From the NCBI GenBank assembly GCA_025558095.1, contig JAIVFI010000007.1:434001-498000 (forward strand): 64,000 bases of DNA, given 5' to 3'. A model generated the notes under the pieces. It did no database searches and was not told the DNA's origin. It saw only the letters and a program-made list of their open reading frames with translations. Positions 20,445-43,844 of the stretch are shown piece after piece; the stretch's first letter is position 1, and each line of letters opens with the position of its first letter. The translations under genes and the position numbers were made by a program. The stretch is from Hyaloraphidium curvatum (lineage: Eukaryota; Monoblepharomycota; Hyaloraphidiomycetes; Hyaloraphidiales; Hyaloraphidiaceae).

Positions 20445-21509
20445 TTAGCAGTCAAAGTCAATGCGGTATCCCGCCCCTTTGAAGCAAGCCCGTGCCATGG
20501 CCTCAGTAATCTGAGTGCACATGAAGTTGATAGCGTCCTTTGCGTCTGGAAACGTCCTGACAAAGTCCTCGTACCTCCTCATGAGCTGCTTGAGGTGAAA
20601 AAAGGAGTGCTCAATGGGGTCAAAGTCCGGGGAGTATGGTGACAGGAACTCGAGGAAAACTCCGAATCTCTCGCAGAGAGGACGAATGCGCGGATCCTTG
20701 TGGATGCTTGCATTGTCCAGAAGGATGACACTGAACGTTGGAATGCGTGGGAGGAGGTCCTTCTCGAGAAAGTCGCAAAAGTCAGCCCCTTTGATTGACC
20801 CCTCTTGAATGCGCCAAGCAACGTAGCCCTTCATGTCCATAGCGGCCAGGATGCTGTACTTTTGGCCCCTCACAAACGGAACGGAAGCAATCGCACGTAG
20901 CCCAATGGGAGCCCAGCCGTACTTGCGGATAAGCGTGTTCTCGTTGTACCCTGATTCGTCCACGGCTACGATCATTCGCGGGTCGTACTTTGATATCCTC
21001 AGCTGGAAATCAATGCGCTGTGCTTCGCAGCGCTCCTTTGCCGCCGTCTCGACGACCTTCCGGGTGATTCCGTTCCGGTGGAGGAGTTCCCAAAGAGCAC
21101 TGACGGAGAACTGTACTCCATAGGCATCCGAGACGCGCGAGACGATCTGATCCAGGTAGAGAGTGTTGTTTGCCACGACAAAGTCTACGACTTGCTGCTC
21201 CTGGCCCGGGCTCAGAAGGCGTTTGCGTCCTCGGCGGCCGGTGAGCGGGCTCGTCACGCAGCCCCACGTCGTGAAGCAGGTAACGACGCGGGCCACGCTC
21301 CGACGAGAAACCAAAAGCTCCCGTGCGATCTGCGCCTTTGGCTGGCCGTCTGCCCATTTGCAAATGATCCTCCACCGCAAAGCGTCAGGCAGGGCGCGAG
21401 TGGTTCCGACAGGAGACCGTGTCGAGCGGACGACTCTGTTTGCTCCATTAGAGCACGCCAGGTGGAAGGCAGCAACAAATATGAACCTTCTCCACCGGAT
21501 TGGCGGCAT
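20445..21509 (-). CDS. Tc1/mariner-IS630 superfamily transposase (DD34E)
   Basis: This is an intact, intronless 354-residue transposase starting at the first in-frame ATG, 21509. A paired-type helix-turn-helix region (RIICKWADGQPKAQIARELL, then SVARVV) precedes a GRRGRKRLL basic hinge. The DDE catalytic residues are Asp in VAVDESGYNE, Asp in VILLDNASIHK and Glu in SPDFDPIEH. Exactly 34 residues separate the second Asp from the Glu, the DD34E spacing of Tc1 and many IS630 relatives. The protein should bind element ends and carry out cut-and-paste transposition into TA sites. I could not find terminal inverted repeats by eye near either end, so element limits are unknown. The frame is open throughout, suggesting recent activity or selection. 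Confidence 0.93.
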   Translation of the reverse strand: MPPIRWRRFIFVAAFHLACSNGANRVVRSTRSPVGTTRALPDALRWRIICKWADGQPKAQIARELLVSRRSVARVVTCFTTWGCVTSPLTGRRGRKRLLSPGQEQQVVDFVVANNTLYLDQIVSRVSDAYGVQFSVSALWELLHRNGITRKVVETAAKERCEAQRIDFQLRISKYDPRMIVAVDESGYNENTLIRKYGWAPIGLRAIASVPFVRGQKYSILAAMDMKGYVAWRIQEGSIKGADFCDFLEKDLLPRIPTFSVILLDNASIHKDPRIRPLCERFGVFLEFLSPYSPDFDPIEHSFFHLKQLMRRYEDFVRTFPDAKDAINFMCTQITEAMARACFKGAGYRIDFDC

Positions 21510-35217: not shown

Positions 35218-35444
35218 GGCGAGAATGCAAAAGGACGAACACTACTGGCCGGCGCTGGTAGCTACACTCTCAGAAACTGCTACTGTGCCCCCTGTGCCGC
35301 AATCCTTTGCGGCCTAGCAGCAATGTTCATCATCGAGCCTGCGAATAAAAGGCGGTCCCTGACGGACTCCACCTCGATCAAGCAAATGCAATGGCGCCCA
35401 CGCGGTGCATGGCACGCCAACTTGTAACTGTTTCCGCGGCCAGG
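35218..35444. other. 3' flank of the Fanzor gene with a strong hairpin
   Basis: A perfect 7-bp stem with a 4-nt loop (GCCGCAATCCTTTGCGGC) occupies 35296-35313. In TnpB and Fanzor loci the guide RNA is made from the region at and beyond the 3' end of the nuclease gene, so this flank is a candidate site. No inverted partner of this sequence was found near 43.6-43.8 kb by eye. Confidence 0.35.
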
Positions 35445-38400
35445 TCAGCTTGCCGGCTTGAGCTTCTTGACCGACCCATTCGCGGCGCTTGCGGCCGTAC
35501 GCTTGCGGCCTGTGGCGGCACCTGGAGCTCCCGGATCAGCTCGGGATGACGCTCGGGATGACCGTCGCGAATGCGAGCGCGCTCACCCGCGGACTTGCGC
35601 GGCGCTGCACCAGTCCCAGCTCGGAGCTTGGGCTGCGGCTTCGGCTTCCTGGTGTCCGGCCTGAACGGCCAGGGGCGCTCCCCTCCGGTGATGAGGCCGA
35701 ACCAGAAGAGGTGCTCCATGGAGTGCACACTGTTCACGTCGCGCATCCAGAAGCGGCGGCAGAGGGGACAGTATTTCACCCCGCGCACCTCGCCCTTGGA
35801 GCCGGGGTTCCGGATTCCGACGACATAGGTGGTCTTGCAGCTGGAAAGGACGTCAGGCGAGTCGGATGATCACGGCGGCTGCCGCACCAGCTGCACATTT
35901 GGGACGTGAGGTACTCGTTGACCAAGACCATGATCCCGGCCTTGGCCAGCTCCGCCCTGAAGCGAACGATCCGGGAGGCCGGGCCGCCCTTGCTCGCATG
36001 GCCGAATCGCGCGGCGCCGTATGCGATGGTCGTCTGTGGATCGTACTTGCCCGAATACGGGTTGCGACACATGTCGCGACAGATCCAGCTGAGGACCTCG
36101 CGGCGCCGGCGAATCGTGCGCACACGATCCAGGCTGCAGGATGCGTGAGCGAAGTCGTTGCCACAGGGATTGGCTTGCCCACCTCCGTTCTCCGGAACAG
36201 TAGACGTCCAGGATGCGGTCGAGTTGTGGCAGCAGCGCCCTCGTGTAGTCCGAGAAGGCTGCACTGTTCGTTGTGCGTTGAGAGGGCAGGTCGCGCTCGA
36301 AATCGTGGAGAGACTTCTGCACAGGGTTGCCCTCGCAATCGTTGACGTCCAGCATGGTGGTCCGCTTGGTGGCATTCAGACGCGCGGCCGCCTTGTCGTA
36401 GCCGCACAGGCGGCGGTCGAGCTTGGCCGGAACACCGAGGATGAGCTCCGGCAGCGCCGGGGTCCCCGCACGGCCGGCACCAGCGACCTCGCCCCACAGC
36501 TTGGCACCAAACTCGTCCGTGCAGCCGCCAGGGGTCGGGAACAGTTCGACGTTGCGCCGAGCGTGCTTCTCCGCCTTTGCAGCGTCGTTGGGGCGCGAAT
36601 CGGGCGCCGGCGGCTTGAACTCCGAGATCTTGGGCTCCCAGAGCGGGTGGTGTCTGCACGCTCCAGCGGCAGGCGGCGACGGACCGAAAGACCTTGCGAT
36701 CCGCTTAGTATCGGAGCAGGAGTGCTCTAGGTGGAAGCCGACGATCCTCCCGAAGCTGACGGAACCGTCGGCCTTGGACGGGTTCGCCCGCTTCGGCACG
36801 TAGTGCGACTTGGTGCCGTCGGCATTGGTCACGGTGATGCGCTCCGTTGTCCCCGGCAGATGACTGTTGGCGAAGTCGTAGCGTCCGTTCGGCCCGGGGT
36901 TCAGGCTCTTGGCAACGAGCCGCACGTCGACGCGGCGGTTGGCAACAGCCAGAAACCAGCGATTCGGATCCACGTCGACGACCCCGCCCTCCACTGGCTC
37001 GCCGCGCTCGGCCCGCTCGAACATTTCCGCCTGCGTCGGCATGTGCAGGAGATTGGGTGCCAGCACGGACACATGGTCAGGGCGGCTGAGGTAGCAGACG
37101 GGAATGCCAGTCTTGAAGTCGACCGGGGGCCGCGGCAACGGCTCGGCAGAACGCGGCGGGAGCGGAACCGGGGTCGGGGCCAGCTGAGGAGGTACGGGGG
37201 CAGCGAACTTGCCCTCGACCGTTACCGTCGGCGGCGACGGTTCGACCGCGCAAACGACGACTTCGGGAGGGAAGCAAGAAAGGAAGGGGGAAGGAAGTGG
37301 CGGCGAGAAGTCGGGGAAAGGAAGGGCCGCGCATGGATGCACAGAAGTCTCGGGCACCGAGTCACCGGGCGAGACAGTCGCGCAGGGAGGGTCGTTGTGC
37401 CCCGAGCTCAGGGGCGCGAACACGTTGGGCGCACAGTCCACGGCCGAAGGCATGGTGGTGAAGTTAAGGTTGCTGCTGGCACAATAAGAGGGCTCCCAAT
37501 CCATCGGGACCGATTCGTCCCCTTGGGCCGTCGCCTGCAGGTAGTAGACCATGCCCCCATGCCAAATCCGATTCTGGCCTGGAAAAGTGAGGATCCGATC
37601 AGCCTCCGAACCCGTGCGTCACTGAGCAAAATGCCCACCATCGAAGACAGCCATGTCGCACGGCGGGTCCGGATCGCCGTTTGGCAGCCATGGACCGGTG
37701 TAGAGCGGCGGGTAGGGATCCATCGGAACATCGCGAGGGAACGAAACATCCACTTCGAAAGCAGCAAGACCGGCGGGCACATGAGCTGCGGCGGGAACGG
37801 AGACGGTGGGCCGAGTTTGAACAGGAGGAGCCGGCGCGGCTGCTGGCGAATGCGCTGCGCGCTTTGGCGGCTCGACGTCCTGTGTCGTGTTTTGCCGCTC
37901 CTGCTGCTGCGACTGCTGGAACGAGACCTTTTCCACGAAGGAGACTTCTTCGTTAAGAATGCCCAGGGTGCTGCCGCAATGATAGATGCCCCGGACGCCG
38001 GAGTACCTCAGAACGTCCGCGGTGCGACGATAGATGGGCTGCGTGGCGGCGGCATGGCCCCTGGCCGAGACTTTGCCCTGCTGACGGAGGCGGAAGAGCC
38101 GGTCCTCGTTGACGAGTTGGTTGCCGCCGTTGAGCAGGTGGCCGAATAGGTAGTCCGAGTCAACGCGCGAGGTGTCGATGCCAGGCGCGACCTCCACGCC
38201 CAGCTTGGACAAAAACTCGGGCAGATCCGAGGCCGAGATGTAGACGGTCACGGGGGACAAGCTGATTTCGGCGACCGCAGCCCGAAGCTTCCGCCGCGCC
38301 CACGAGGCTGCCTTTTCCTTGCCGGTCTGGGCGGCGCCAAGCCCCGCCATCGCGGCGGCGGCGGCCGCCTTGCGCTCCCGCCGCTTCGTCTCCATGGTCT

Positions 38401-41400
38401 CCTTCTTGGCGAGTCCCTCGGGCCCCGGCTGCGGTCGGCGCTTACGGAAGCTCACGACGAACCCGTGCCATCGCTTCGGGGAGCCATTCTTGCTGTAATG
38501 CCGCTTCTCGACGCGGTGCGGCCGCCACGTGTTGCGGGCCCTCCTGGTCTTGTTCGAAGCCTCCCTGTCCTTGACCGGAGCAGTTGAAATGGTTGGGAAA
38601 GTTGGGGTTGAATCGGGGTCCCTGGCGGTGCTCGTCCTCCGCGCCGTTCCAGGTTCCGGCAGTGCAGCAGCCGCGGACGCGGCCCTCTTCTTCAGCGCCT
38701 CGTCCTGCTTTTCGAGCTCGTGCAGGGCGATGAAGCACATCTGGAAGCCGAAGGCTTCGTCCGCGGGGTTCGTGGATGAACGACACTTGTCGAGGTCATA
38801 CTCGCTCATCCGCGCCACCAGAAGCTTCTCGCTTTCCCAGTGGGGCCGGTTCTGCCCCACCAATGCCGCCGCCGCCGCCTCGTTCATGTCCTCGGCGTGC
38901 TCGGGGACCCAGAACTTGGGTTTCTGCTCTGTCGACCGAATCGTTGCCGTGGTCACGGCCGGGTAGCGGAAGGGGATGCTCCGAAGCTGTAGACGGTTTG
39001 CAACCACCCAGTCCCTCAGCTCCTGCAGCTCCACCTTTCGCAAGTCAGCCTTCTCCGCAGGTGAGGCCCGCGGCAGCGTCTCCCAAATGTTCTGGAGGTA
39101 GCTGCGCACCGCCTCCGTTTCCGCGTCGACCTTTCCGCGCGGCTTGCCCTTCGGCAGGTTCACGGTTCGCACCGCGGCCGCCACGGGGTTGCCCGCCTGC
39201 TTGTCCTGCAGGACCCGAGCGATAACCCTCCGCTGCGAAACGGTTGCCGGCACCGGCGGCTTCTGTTTTGAATCCCGGAGGTCAACGATCCGGTTCAGCT
39301 GCAAGCCTCTGAACGGCCGGAGGAGCCTCCCCAGCCCGACCCTGAGCTCCGTGGCCTCGGCGAGACCACAGCCAAATGCGCTTTCGAACGGGAAATTGGA
39401 GAAGTCGTCGTCCCCATATCCGAGCTTTGCCAGAGCGTAGCTGAGGATTGGGCCAATCCGCCTCCGGCCGACGCCCGCGTTCACCTCCCCGCGTAGGAAG
39501 CGACGGATGAGAACCTTGAGCGCAGTCAGCAGCCGCTGCGGCACGCTTCGAGCTCGGTTGAAAGCGACCTGCTCGGCATAGCGGAGCAAAGGTCCCTGCA
39601 CGAAAAGCGGCCTGAGCTTGTCGTACGTCTCGCCCACAAGTTCCCGCGCCTCTGCAAACGCAGCAACGGCCGCCTTGCGGACAAGCTTTGCCGCTGCGTT
39701 GTGCTCCGCGACGGTGAGAACGGACGGTGCGCCCTGATCAGCAACCTGCGAGAGATCGGGGGTGTCCTCAGCCGTAACCAAGTCCTCGTCCTCAATCTGA
39801 TCCAGCTCGCCGTGCAAGAAGTCGGCCAAGATCTTGGCGCCGGCCTGGTCCTCGGACATCGCGTCGTCATCGTCCTCGAAGTCAACGTCCTCGAGCACCT
39901 CGTCTCGATCGTCGTCGTTGGCTCCGAGGTCCGGACCGCCGTCCACAAGCTGCTCCACTCCTGGCGCCCCCGAATGGCCCGAGTATCTCGCCCCAGCACC
40001 GAGCCCGGCCGACTTCTGCTTTCCCGCGCGGCGGGTTCCAACAGCGGCGGACATCTGGCCGGCACCAAGCACGGCGTGGATGGCAATCTTTGCGACGTAA
40101 GACGGGGGAAAGCTGGCGAGCATGTCCTGCGTGACGGATCCGTCTTGGTCCGGGAGCTCTTTGTTGTGGATCTGCAACAAGATCTTGGTCCAGATGATCT
40201 TGAATAAGATGGCGGCGAGGGTGCAGGCCTTGGTGATGAGGGGCCCGACTTGCTCGTACGGGCCCCGCGCCCATGGGTGGCACACCTCGGCCGCCGGGAA
40301 CCACTCGACGGCCAGCTCCGTCATCGTCTTGTATCGCTCGTGCTGGGGGTCGCCAAGTGCGAGGAAGCCGTTGAGCGCGACCCACCGCCGCTTCGGAGAG
40401 CACTCCTGCCGGTGCCTCCCGCCACCGGCGAAACAGAAAGGGCAGGACGAGCCGCCGAGGCCCGTAGGAATGTTGGCTTTGAGGTTTGTCGACGCGAACG
40501 GGACAATGTAGTGTGCGTTGGCAATGAACTGGCCGAACGACGTGGTGAGATTCCTTGGGGCGACCAAACTGTCCGCGGCGGCGGTCAGCTTCGCATCGGT
40601 CCCAGGCATGCATGGAAAGCGCGGTGCAACTCACGCCCCACGGTGGTTCTCCTCGACATGCTGCCGGAACTCACTCTCGAGGTCGAACTGATGTCCCTTC
40701 CCCGGGCACGCTCTGCAGGTGAGGTGCGCACCCTTGACGTGGTGGAGGAGCCGAAGCTCGGCGTCATAGACACGCTCCCGCGCAGCTCCGTCAGCCACCA
40801 TCCCCGACGCCGCGACCTTGCGCCGCCGCCCAGCCTTCGCCGGGACTTCGCCTTCCACCTGCACACTGAAGGAACAGAGCGGACAATCCCGCTTCTGGAT
40901 ACGGCCGAAGTCCAGCAGTCCAACGGATTCCGCGTGGAAGTGGAGCTTGGCGTCGAGCGCGGTGCGCGCGGCCTCCTGCCGTGCTTCGGGGTTGCTACCG
41001 CGCACCAGCGCGGGCATACCGCACAAGTCCAGGGTAAAATCGCGCATCTTGGGCCCCGACTCCAGCAGCCGCAGCGTCACCATGGAAGAGTGTTCCCACC
41101 CGAGCTGCTCCGCCTTCAGGAACAGGGTTGCCAGCAGCTTATCGCCCTCTGCATCCAGTCCAGGTACGCCCGGGCTCATCTGGAAAAGGCCCGGGAACGA
41201 AAGCAGCTGCCGGGGCAAAAATCAGTTTGGGATTGCGGGGCTGCTCGACAGGAGATTGCACACCAGCACGGGAACGGAACCCGGATTCTCGATGGCGAGG
41301 GCCTCCTCGTTGGCCGCCATCGGGTTCCACACCGCCCAATCGAAGAATCTCTTGCGCCCTTCCGCATTGCGACTCGCCACACTATCCGGCAAACGCGCCG

Positions 41401-43579
41401 CCATGACTATCTTGCATCGCTGCGGGAGGGAGAGCGAAGCAAGGAAGTACTCCAGGCCGGGCGACGCATCAAAAAGCGAGCGGCCCTGCTGGTCCTTCAG
41501 CGTGCGGCACGCTTCCTCCAGTATCTGCCTAAGGTTCCTTGGCAGAGACTCGGTCGAAGCCGCGCGTTCGAGGTACTCCAACCGACAGACCTTCGAAATG
41601 GGCTGGTGAACATAATGCAGAGCACGACGTGCTGTCTCGGATGTTTCGAAGCTGTCCATGCGTGCCCTCCCGGCCGGGCCGAGCTGTCCCCAGAGAGAAA
41701 CAGCGAGCGCACGTAGCCATTCTGGTCCACGACCGTTTCGTACAAGGCCCGATAGGAGGATGGCGAACCTCTCGTCCAGCACGGTGTCGTTTGCAAGGGC
41801 TGAGAGCGGAAACAGCTGTTTCAACGCGGCGCGGCTGGCTTTCTTGAACGAGACGTTAAGTTCCGGTGGGACGTCGGCATAGCGGGCGAGGTTATCCAGC
41901 TGGGAGATGGAGACGTCGGGGGCTGACGGCGGTCCCAGATCCGCGCCATCGTCCGCGGGGCGGAAAAAGGGGGGTGCCGGTGCGTCTGGTCCGATCAGAC
42001 TGGGGGCGACCCGGCGCCGCCGGGCGACGATGTTCCGGAGGCGCGCGACGAAAAGCTCGCGCTCCAGCTTGTACCCCCGACCCGATGCCACCCGCTGACA
42101 GATGAACTCAAAAGGAGCTTCACCGAGGTTGGAGAGGCCCCCGAGGACGTCCGCAGCGTCGAAGCCCGCGGTCCTTTGAGCGGAGTCCGTGAAGTCGTTC
42201 CACGGCCCAAAGAATTCCCTCGCCGAACCATCGACGTGGAGAACTTCCCTCAGGATCAGCAAAGTGTGCTTTTGGTGCGGGTTGATGTGGGCGACGCCGA
42301 GGTTGCGAGCCTGCTCGGAGTGGGCGTTGTCGTGAGTCAGCGCGGTCTGCATGCCCGATGCGCAACCGTCATGGCAGTCCACCTCTTCAGCGAGCCGCTC
42401 GGCCGCGTTTGCTTCGGTCTGGGTCGCTGCTGCGCCCTCCATCGCGGAAGGGCACGTCTGAGGAGCCGGAGAAGCAAAGGCAGAGATCTGACCTTGTAGT
42501 GTGACCTTCCGCGCCACACATTTGCCGGCGGACGCGGATTCCGCGATGCGCACAAACTCAGCCTCGCTTAGCTTCAAGCAGTGCCGGAACGTCGCCATCA
42601 GATCGCCGTGGCCGACGATTTGAATGGCCCTCTCGATGGACCGGACGAGATCCGGCACCGTCCTGGGGCAGTCCCGCCTCACGAGGTTCTTGATCGTGGC
42701 AAACACGTACTCGGTCGGGTTAAATTCCGGCGATCTCGGTCGCAGGTAGATGAGGCTCAGATTGTTGGCCTTTGCTACGGCCTGGACCGCAAGGAACGAC
42801 TTGCCCGAGAGGTTCTTTATTATTGCCGTGCCGTCCGTGGTCTTCCTTGCCCGCAGAGGAGAGCCGTGGAAACCCGCATTGTCCAGGATAACGCCCAGGG
42901 ACTCGGGCCCACAAGCCCCGGCGCGAATAGTCTTGAGAAAAGCACAGAACCTCTCGGTGTTCATGTTGCCGCTGTAGATCTGGTACGAGATCACGTTTCC
43001 AGTGTGATTACCGGGTCGCGGAGTGGGTGAGATGGCGAGGCAAAGGGTCACCTTGGGGCCCCGGTTCCCTGGCAGGTATACGACGGCGGGAGTCCCCTTC
43101 TCCGAGTAGCCGAAGCGCCCCGGATCGTTGAGTTGGAATGAGGACTCGTCCAAGGCACCTAGGCGCCCCAAATCAAGGGAAGTGACCCTCTCGTGGAACA
43201 TGCGGTGCCGCTCGGGTTGTTTCAGGGCTTCGGCGCTCTTAATGGTGAGCTTCTTCCTCGTGACCCTGTTGGCCTTCAGCAGCCGCGAGATATGCTGCTG
43301 CGACACCAAAACGCCAAACTTTTCCGCCAGGTCAGCAGCGAGCTCCCTTTGCGTCACGCGGACGCGAGCTTTGGCCTCGTCAACTACGTGCCGGACCATT
43401 TCCTCGGACACCTTGCGGAAGGCCTTGCGGGGATGGTCCGGAACGGTCTGAGCCCCACATCGGCGGATCCAACGGAAATACGTCGTTCGGTGAATTGCGA
43501 GTACAGCAGCAATCTCGTCCGGGTCAAGCTTGCCGGTCTGCTTGAGCCGAACCGCGGTTTCTGGCCCGCTCAGAAGCAT
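35445..43579 (-). CDS. IS630-type transposase fused to Fanzor (TnpB-like) nuclease
   Basis: The model has six exons: 43579-41264, 41206-40635, 40568-37639, 37578-36183, 36133-35587 and 35521-35445. The introns (57, 66, 60, 49 and 65 nt) each remove an in-frame stop or restore the family frame. Residues 1 to about 345 are an IS630/Tc1-like transposase: helix-turn-helix (LDPDEIAAVLAIHRTTYFRW), Asp144 in GALDESSF, Asp233 in VILDNAGFH, Glu290 in SPEFNPTE. About 1,600 residues of unfamiliar sequence follow, with Cys/His clusters (CPLC, CRAC, CPFC). The RuvC-I region is VVDVDPNRWFLAV near residue 2143. The Fanzor core is IAYGAARFGHASKGG, then NEYLTSQMCSWCG, then VKYCPLCRRFWMRDVNS. An unresolved shift of frame lies between 35842 and 35876. 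Without the last intron the frame ends at 35378. Confidence 0.72.
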
Positions 43580-43844
43580 GTTTTGGCCGTGCCGTTCCCC
43601 GACGCGACGCAGGAGGCACCACGCGCCTTTTGCGATGGAGACTGTGCTCTAGCGGTTGCAAATTCGCACGCGGCGACTCCGGCAAGCTCGAGTAGCGGGG
43701 ACCTGTGTGTGAAACGAGGAGCGCCGGGCAGCCAACTGGGAAACCCCTTACCCCCACACTGCCACCGCGTTCTGCGGGCCGCCGAGCGCCGGACGGTGTC
43801 CGAGGCAGCGAGTTCCGGCCGCGGTAGCGGCGCCCTGGCCCGAG
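35445..43844 (-). mobile_element. Probable DNA transposon carrying a transposase-Fanzor gene
   Basis: The DDE transposase and the RuvC nuclease mark this block as a transposable element inserted between the POLE3 and SEC63 genes. Its limits are not defined: candidate terminal sequences at 35218-35444 and 43580-43844 show no convincing inverted repeat by eye. Family knowledge: Fanzor1 proteins are often carried by eukaryotic DNA transposons, including mariner-like ones. Confidence 0.55.

Follow-up and report, generated by a model that had tools for sequence, protein, structure and literature searches.

A transposon in the stretch of Hyaloraphidium curvatum DNA analysed here (the window: 64,000 nt, positions 434,001 to 498,000 of contig JAIVFI010000007.1) holds a gene that reads, once spliced, from a transposase into a nuclease. 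We favour, with a probability of roughly 0.64, the reading that the element is an autonomous DNA transposon of IS630 type and that its one gene, when spliced, encodes a DDE transposase with a C-terminal region, a long linker and a divergent Fanzor-like RNA-guided nuclease. The element has defined ends and repeated copies, its gene structure and catalytic residues are read directly from the DNA, and the fused structure is conserved in two families of the same genome, A, which includes the window element, and B.

Gene structure and its conservation in a second family

Four stop-to-stop frames adjoin one another in a single minus-strand frame from 43648 to 35870, with lengths of 808, 196, 1003 and 582 codons, and past this point the frame shifts. 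Removal of six GT-AG introns (57, 66, 60, 49, 47 and 65 nt) takes out both the stops and the later frame shifts, and the product, of 2,596 residues in seven exons, runs on the minus strand from ATG 43579 to TGA 35445. An earlier note on this DNA had claimed an unbroken passage from transposase to nuclease, and the spliced model bears this out at the same coordinates; the note's intron range of 49-66 nt holds for five introns, the other being 47 nt long. From this structure we infer one mRNA and one polypeptide. The element and its gene comprise:

35261..43715, minus strand: whole element, 8,455 bp; similarity is lost sharply at both ends among 10 copies in different flanks
43703..43715, minus strand: 5' terminal repeat GTTTCACACACAG; TC precedes it in the window copy
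41264..43579, minus strand: exon 1, IS630-type transposase, residues 1 to ~350 (D144 D233 E290), and C-terminal region up to residue 772
41207..41263, minus strand: intron 1, 57 nt, phase 0; links the transposase exon with the remainder; 59 nt in family B, at equal phase and aligned column
40635..41206, minus strand: exon 2, cysteine/histidine clusters; 38% identity to family B
40569..40634, minus strand: intron 2, 66 nt, phase 2; family B counterpart 3 columns off, next to a gap
37639..40568, minus strand: exon 3, ~976 residues; without a Pfam match
37579..37638, minus strand: intron 3, 60 nt, phase 1
36183..37578, minus strand: exon 4, proline-rich stretch, then RuvC-I aspartate D2143 (DPNRWF)
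36134..36182, minus strand: intron 4, 49 nt, phase 2
35888..36133, minus strand: exon 5, nuclease core through NEYLTSQMCS; 82% identity to family B
35841..35887, minus strand: intron 5, 47 nt, phase 2; interrupts the zinc ribbon
35587..35840, minus strand: exon 6, second half of the zinc ribbon and RuvC-III RDVNS (D2521)
35522..35586, minus strand: intron 6, 65 nt, phase 1, directly after KSA; family B counterpart 8 columns off, with KSAG also split in phase 1
35445..35521, minus strand: exon 7, basic tail KRTAASAANGSVKKLK, by eye like a nuclear localization signal, then the stop; 24% identity to family B
35347..35383, minus strand: conserved 3' block GCTTGATCGAGGTGGAGTCCG and short hairpin, candidate guide-RNA scaffold
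35261..35273, minus strand: 3' terminal repeat CTGAGAGTGTAGC, imperfect inverse of the 5' end; TA follows it

About 1,800 residues separate the transposase (which reaches to ~350) from the RuvC-I aspartate (2143), and the pieces of this region that were scanned gave no Pfam family above cut-off.

Support for a single gene, as the earlier note had it, comes from family B, which has the same order of parts and a counterpart of equal phase for each of the six introns. There are five B copies, one of which (L072) was read whole while the other four were matched exon by exon. Alignment of the two families over 2,493 residues gives 43% identity (transposase 63%, middle 36%, nuclease exon 45%), with 1086, 971 and 1470 mismatches at first, second and third codon positions. 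Third positions are the most changed in every exon block measured, apart from the short final block, in which positions 2 and 3 are level. The B model has eight introns, six of them matching the six of A in phase; introns 1, 3, 4 and 5 fall in identical aligned columns, intron 2 is shifted by 3 columns beside a gap, and intron 6 by 8 columns within the poorly conserved tail. Intron lengths in A and B are 57/59, 66/54, 60/52, 49/60, 47/58 and 65/49 nt, unequal modulo 3 at five of six positions, and removal restores the homologous frame every time. All 14 A and B introns listed contain a CTNAY motif (by eye).

The join between exons 1 and 2 reads, with slashes at the splice sites, CTG/GTGTGC...CGGCAG/CTG in A and CTG/GTGAGC...TCGCAG/CCG in B, and in both families the in-frame TGA of intron 1 lies within CTGAT or CTGAC. 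The donor in A is uncertain, with 41269 and 41275 as in-frame alternatives to the same acceptor. The join itself is firmer than the exact donor, because three of the four possible choices in each family share acceptor and phase. Read-through of the TGA at 41222 was considered and rejected, as in B the homology continues past the stop in another frame.

How often such bridges arise in the window was gauged with a control script, run on both strands, that took each stop following at least 150 open codons and sought an intron of 45-70 nt (GTG or GTA donor, CTNAY motif, YAG acceptor) leading into at least 190 open codons. Only 5 of 193 stops were bridgeable. The three stops of the gene (41224, 40633 and 37621) are among the minus-strand entries, with values within the cut-offs; at 41224 the script paired the identical acceptor with another donor, which lies 6 nt upstream and gives 63 nt. 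Since the structure is conserved in a second family, chance is very unlikely.

The gene fills a transposon, because ten loci share the sequence up to GTTTCACACACAG at the left and CTGAGAGTGTAGC at the right, where their similarity drops abruptly. The terminal inverted repeats of family A are 13 nt long and imperfect, with 9 of 13 positions matching (by eye), and the ends of family B are similar; ungapped repeat searches failed to pick out these ends, which emerged from the comparison of copies. Family A has ten near-identical copies in the 31.9-Mb genome, counting that of the window, and the other nine each differ from it at 9 to 26 sites, which points to recent spread. Seven of these nine have exons 1-3 free of stops and of equal length, and exon 4, where matched, is likewise without a stop; the C15 copy has a 1-nt deletion in exon 3, and the C35 copy, altered at both ends, carries one TAG and is missing part of the 5' end. 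In all nine, exons 5-7 match in length and stay open as far as the shared final stop. The window copy lacks 171 nt of exon 4 (at ~37447; 57 codons, in frame, proline-rich) that the nine others possess, a stretch itself read in one of them (L038).

Right flanks carry TA at 9 of 10 family A copies, and left flanks TA at four and TC at six (window 43716-43717 and homologous flanks); in family B, TA is found on the left at 3 of 5 and CA on the right at all five. These flanking dinucleotides are TA-like, and the target duplication is no clean TA. The earlier note had called for a search for further copies of the fusion, and ten A and five B copies answer it. Copies in which the two parts are separate genes, which it had named as a refutation, were not seen among A, with its shared structure, or B, with one copy read whole and the rest exon by exon; this check covers those two families, and the sequence between the parts at four larger relatives, described below, lies outside it, unread.

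The window element is flanked by two genes that were named by eye, one SEC63-like and the other histone-fold-like. By eye, and from ten candidates listed, the SEC63-like gene has three introns of 55-58 nt with the CTNAY motif, and the histone-fold-like gene has one of ~50 nt. At C15:542316-545132 a family C transposase directly adjoins the right end of an A copy.

The transposase and nuclease parts

The IS630 label given to the transposase in the earlier note is supported by the N-terminal part, which scores 122.2 bits against the NCBIfam IS630 transposase model NF033545 (cut-off 100) and 56.1 bits against Pfam DDE_3 (cut-off 28.6). D144, D233 and E290 are invariant across five aligned sequences, the window copy and four others. 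A set of 5.8 billion proteins, in which each search scored only about 8,000 candidates, gave one transposase relative (P0001, 43% identity over half of the query), and a search of the PDB by sequence with the transposase query gave three weak, unrelated matches. Outside the element, window positions 20691-21263 on the minus strand (C7:454691-455263) hold a distant IS630-like transposase match (27%).

In the C-terminal part RuvC-I, a zinc ribbon and RuvC-III follow in order. The catalytic and core motifs that the earlier note had listed (D144, D233, E290, DPNRWF, YGAARFGHASKGG and RDVNS) are all present, with one correction: its core motif NEYLTSQMCSWCG extends into an intron, and the spliced product reads NEYLTSQMCSCCK, completing the zinc ribbon. 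With splicing the score against the zinc-ribbon family PF07282 rises from 20.0 bits in the unspliced frame to 26.4, just above the cut-off of 26.3. A relative on contig C2, here D2, scores 32.3 bits against the same family and aligns over ~430 columns at 26% identity to A and 31% to B. The motif ExxxxxxCxxC reads NEYLTSQMCSCC in A, NEYLTSQMCSKC in B and HEHGSSQKCNRC in D2, and this alternative glutamate is a Fanzor hallmark (PMC10711439). The RuvC-I aspartate, the alternative glutamate, the zinc ribbon and the RuvC-III aspartate are all retained in A, B and D2. The motif NPGP near RuvC-I in A was also considered as a self-cleaving 2A peptide and rejected, as B has DPGP there and a cut would split the nuclease.

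Searches with the nuclease in protein, viral and PDB sequences turned up no close relative. The protein set yielded no relative within the scope given above, and the PDB no match by sequence to the A nuclease query; D2 and a three-sequence profile gave weak zinc-ribbon matches in the PDB to TnpB-like chains and LaTranC (best E 0.0015). Among viral contigs 61 and 31 stretches fit short patterns and 0 were confirmed, and prokaryote contigs gave a single weak match (26%).

Close to the 3' end, A and B carry the same 21-nt block, GCTTGATCGAGGTGGAGTCCG. The 17-nt core of this block has exactly 15 perfect occurrences in the genome, one per A or B copy, and with two mismatches it has 39 further sites versus 10 for a reversed control pattern. 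As exact copies of the core occur at the right end only, the block fits the role of a guide-RNA scaffold better than that of a transposase site, and we regard it as a candidate guide RNA.

Related loci and known systems

A search with the D2 nuclease found five further Fanzor C-terminal matches in the genome, and the Pfam search one more (C15:378582, C13:344096, C3:874428, C23:297272, C12:33714 and C5:336026). Four of the six lie downstream of an IS630-like transposase match on the same strand, at gaps of ~18.5, 21.5, 13.3 and 15.4 kb. With ten A, five B and two D copies, an arrangement with the transposase on the left side and a Fanzor on the right appears to be a common layout in this genome, of which A and B look like a compact, fused form. 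In family D, ~4.7-4.8 kb separate the two parts that were read; the transposase frames of family C showed no clear splice reading at their ends. Four regions (C23:297272-315268, C15:359125-378740, C13:321440-344221 and C3:874428-890481) are possible candidates for very large transposons of the same layout.

Elements that pair these enzymes are known. PGv-1 is said to encode three proteins, a transposase, an endonuclease and a Fanzor (Bao and Jurka 2013, PMC3627910), its Fanzor1 and Mariner transposase being separate, and the main text of that paper contains neither "fused" nor "fusion". Like PGv-1 and PUl-1, which are Fanzor1-bearing Tc1/Mariner elements, the window element has a Mariner-type DDE transposase and a Fanzor-like nuclease, inverted ends and possibly TA-type targets; unlike PGv-1, it has one spliced frame, with the ~1,800 residues between its catalytic parts. 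The Fanzor1 element SPu-1 of Spizellomyces punctatus resembles it in its TnpB-type nuclease, inverted ends and putative TA duplications (PMC3627910), but encodes a 633-residue single-ORF (open reading frame) Fanzor with no transposase inside the Spu-1 repeats (PMC10432273). Fanzor2 and the Fanzor-related IS607 TnpB clade share the alternative glutamate, six residues before the zinc finger, but have a DPG motif (PMC10711439) and a separate serine-recombinase transposase. Literature listings on fusions of Fanzor or TnpB to a transposase held no report of one, most subscription papers being outside their coverage. Elsewhere the transposase and Fanzor parts are described as proteins of their own; here they appear to be encoded in one spliced gene.

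Competing readings and a proposed mechanism

Several observations weigh against a single gene for an active transposase-nuclease. The introns of family B were selected with the protein of A as guide, and intron 1 has four frame-keeping GT-AG choices in each family, which leaves its exact donor uncertain. With intron 1 retained, the frame of both families closes after 13 further codons, at a shared position, so that a short transposase-only form is possible. Selection on the recent A copies is weakly seen at most, because their introns vary as much as third positions (21, 9 and 23 variable sites at first, second and third positions). The layout need not be one gene everywhere, because transposase and Fanzor matches stand 13-22 kb apart at four loci, and there are transposase matches without such a Fanzor match (C5:420273, C27:349503, C15:542316-545132, C21:582075 and several weaker ones), which tells against the layout being common. 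RNA fold energies at the 3' end show no excess over shuffles (z -0.16 and -0.39). In the nuclease, RuvC-I reads DPN in A, B and D2 where Fanzors have DPG almost exclusively, and the RuvC-I aspartate is 337 residues from the TS pair in A and 324 in B, compared to a published 125-275 (PMC3627910). The elements of the pattern D-X(125,275)-[TS][TS]xx-C4-X(5,50)-RD are all present in order, and the X(5) before RD fits, with the first X too long. The cysteine pairs of the zinc ribbon are 22 residues apart in A and B and 14 in D2 (by eye), so that A and B miss the pattern CxxCx(12,18)CxxC (PMC10711439). The Fanzor label of the earlier note stands in part: the alternative glutamate and the spliced zinc ribbon speak for it, and because of DPN instead of DPG and the long spacings we call the nuclease Fanzor-like and treat the label as provisional.

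These same departures, the DPN motif and the long insertions, would suit a fusion that is translated with a nuclease end that is inactive or serves in another role, such as DNA binding or regulation. TnpB relatives that have lost activity are known. We nevertheless consider this unlikely, given that the key residues and the zinc ribbon are kept in A, B and D2 and that exon 5 is the most conserved part of the gene. A switch at intron 1, by which one transcript would give a 785-residue transposase when the intron is retained and the 2,596-residue fusion when it is spliced, is distinctly unlikely in our estimate. The third intron of the Drosophila P element offers a comparison for such a splicing switch, and both the shared end of the retained-intron frame and a donor that looks weaker in A (GTGTGC) than in B (GTGAGC) speak for it; but the shared TGA lies in a CTGAY motif, so that a branch site explains it, and the retained codons with their stop (25 of 42 bases identical between A and B, ungapped) have no excess of third-position changes (mismatches 7, 4 and 6 by codon position).

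More doubtful again are two head-to-tail genes, the first for a transposase and ending at TGA 41222, the second for the nuclease and starting independently downstream, or else an mRNA with two cistrons. The separate proteins of PGv-1 (PMC3627910) and the distances between matches at other loci here would agree with such an arrangement, yet in A only 42 nt separate TGA 41222 from the next in-frame ATG, and exons 1 and 2 are phase-compatible in both families despite introns of 57 and 59 nt. In B, exon 2 has no methionine in its first 54 residues, its first being the 55th; A and B agree at 16 of the 53 aligned residues that precede it (30, 26 and 34 mismatches by codon position), a weak sign of translation through the join. 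That the frames are a product of chance in G+C-rich DNA has next to no probability: long shadow frames do occur, one of 502 codons on the opposite strand, but the conserved protein of a family 43% identical, the conserved introns and the repeated copies refute it.

We return to a single spliced gene for a transposase-nuclease as the reading that we favour, and propose how such a protein may serve its element. Judging from family membership, the transposase end would bind the terminal repeats and cut and paste the element. A guide RNA derived from the 3' end of the element (the conserved block to the right end and slightly beyond) would direct the nuclease to the unoccupied site, where a cut could lead repair to copy the element back, as has been proposed for TnpB (PMC10432273). 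A single chain would couple the expression of both enzymes and may bring both to the ends of the element.

We see a somewhat better than even chance that H. curvatum possesses a natural polypeptide of ~2,600 residues that unites a DDE transposase and an RNA-guided nuclease, in two families (15 copies), with a conserved intron that possibly switches between a transposase-only form and the fusion. Such a protein would be a natural design for uniting programmable cutting and insertion within one molecule, and the near-identical copies that point to recent movement, the defined ends and the candidate guide-RNA block offer a testable system. A fusion in one chain would tie the nuclease to the transposition event itself, which bears on the role that Fanzors play for their carrier transposons.

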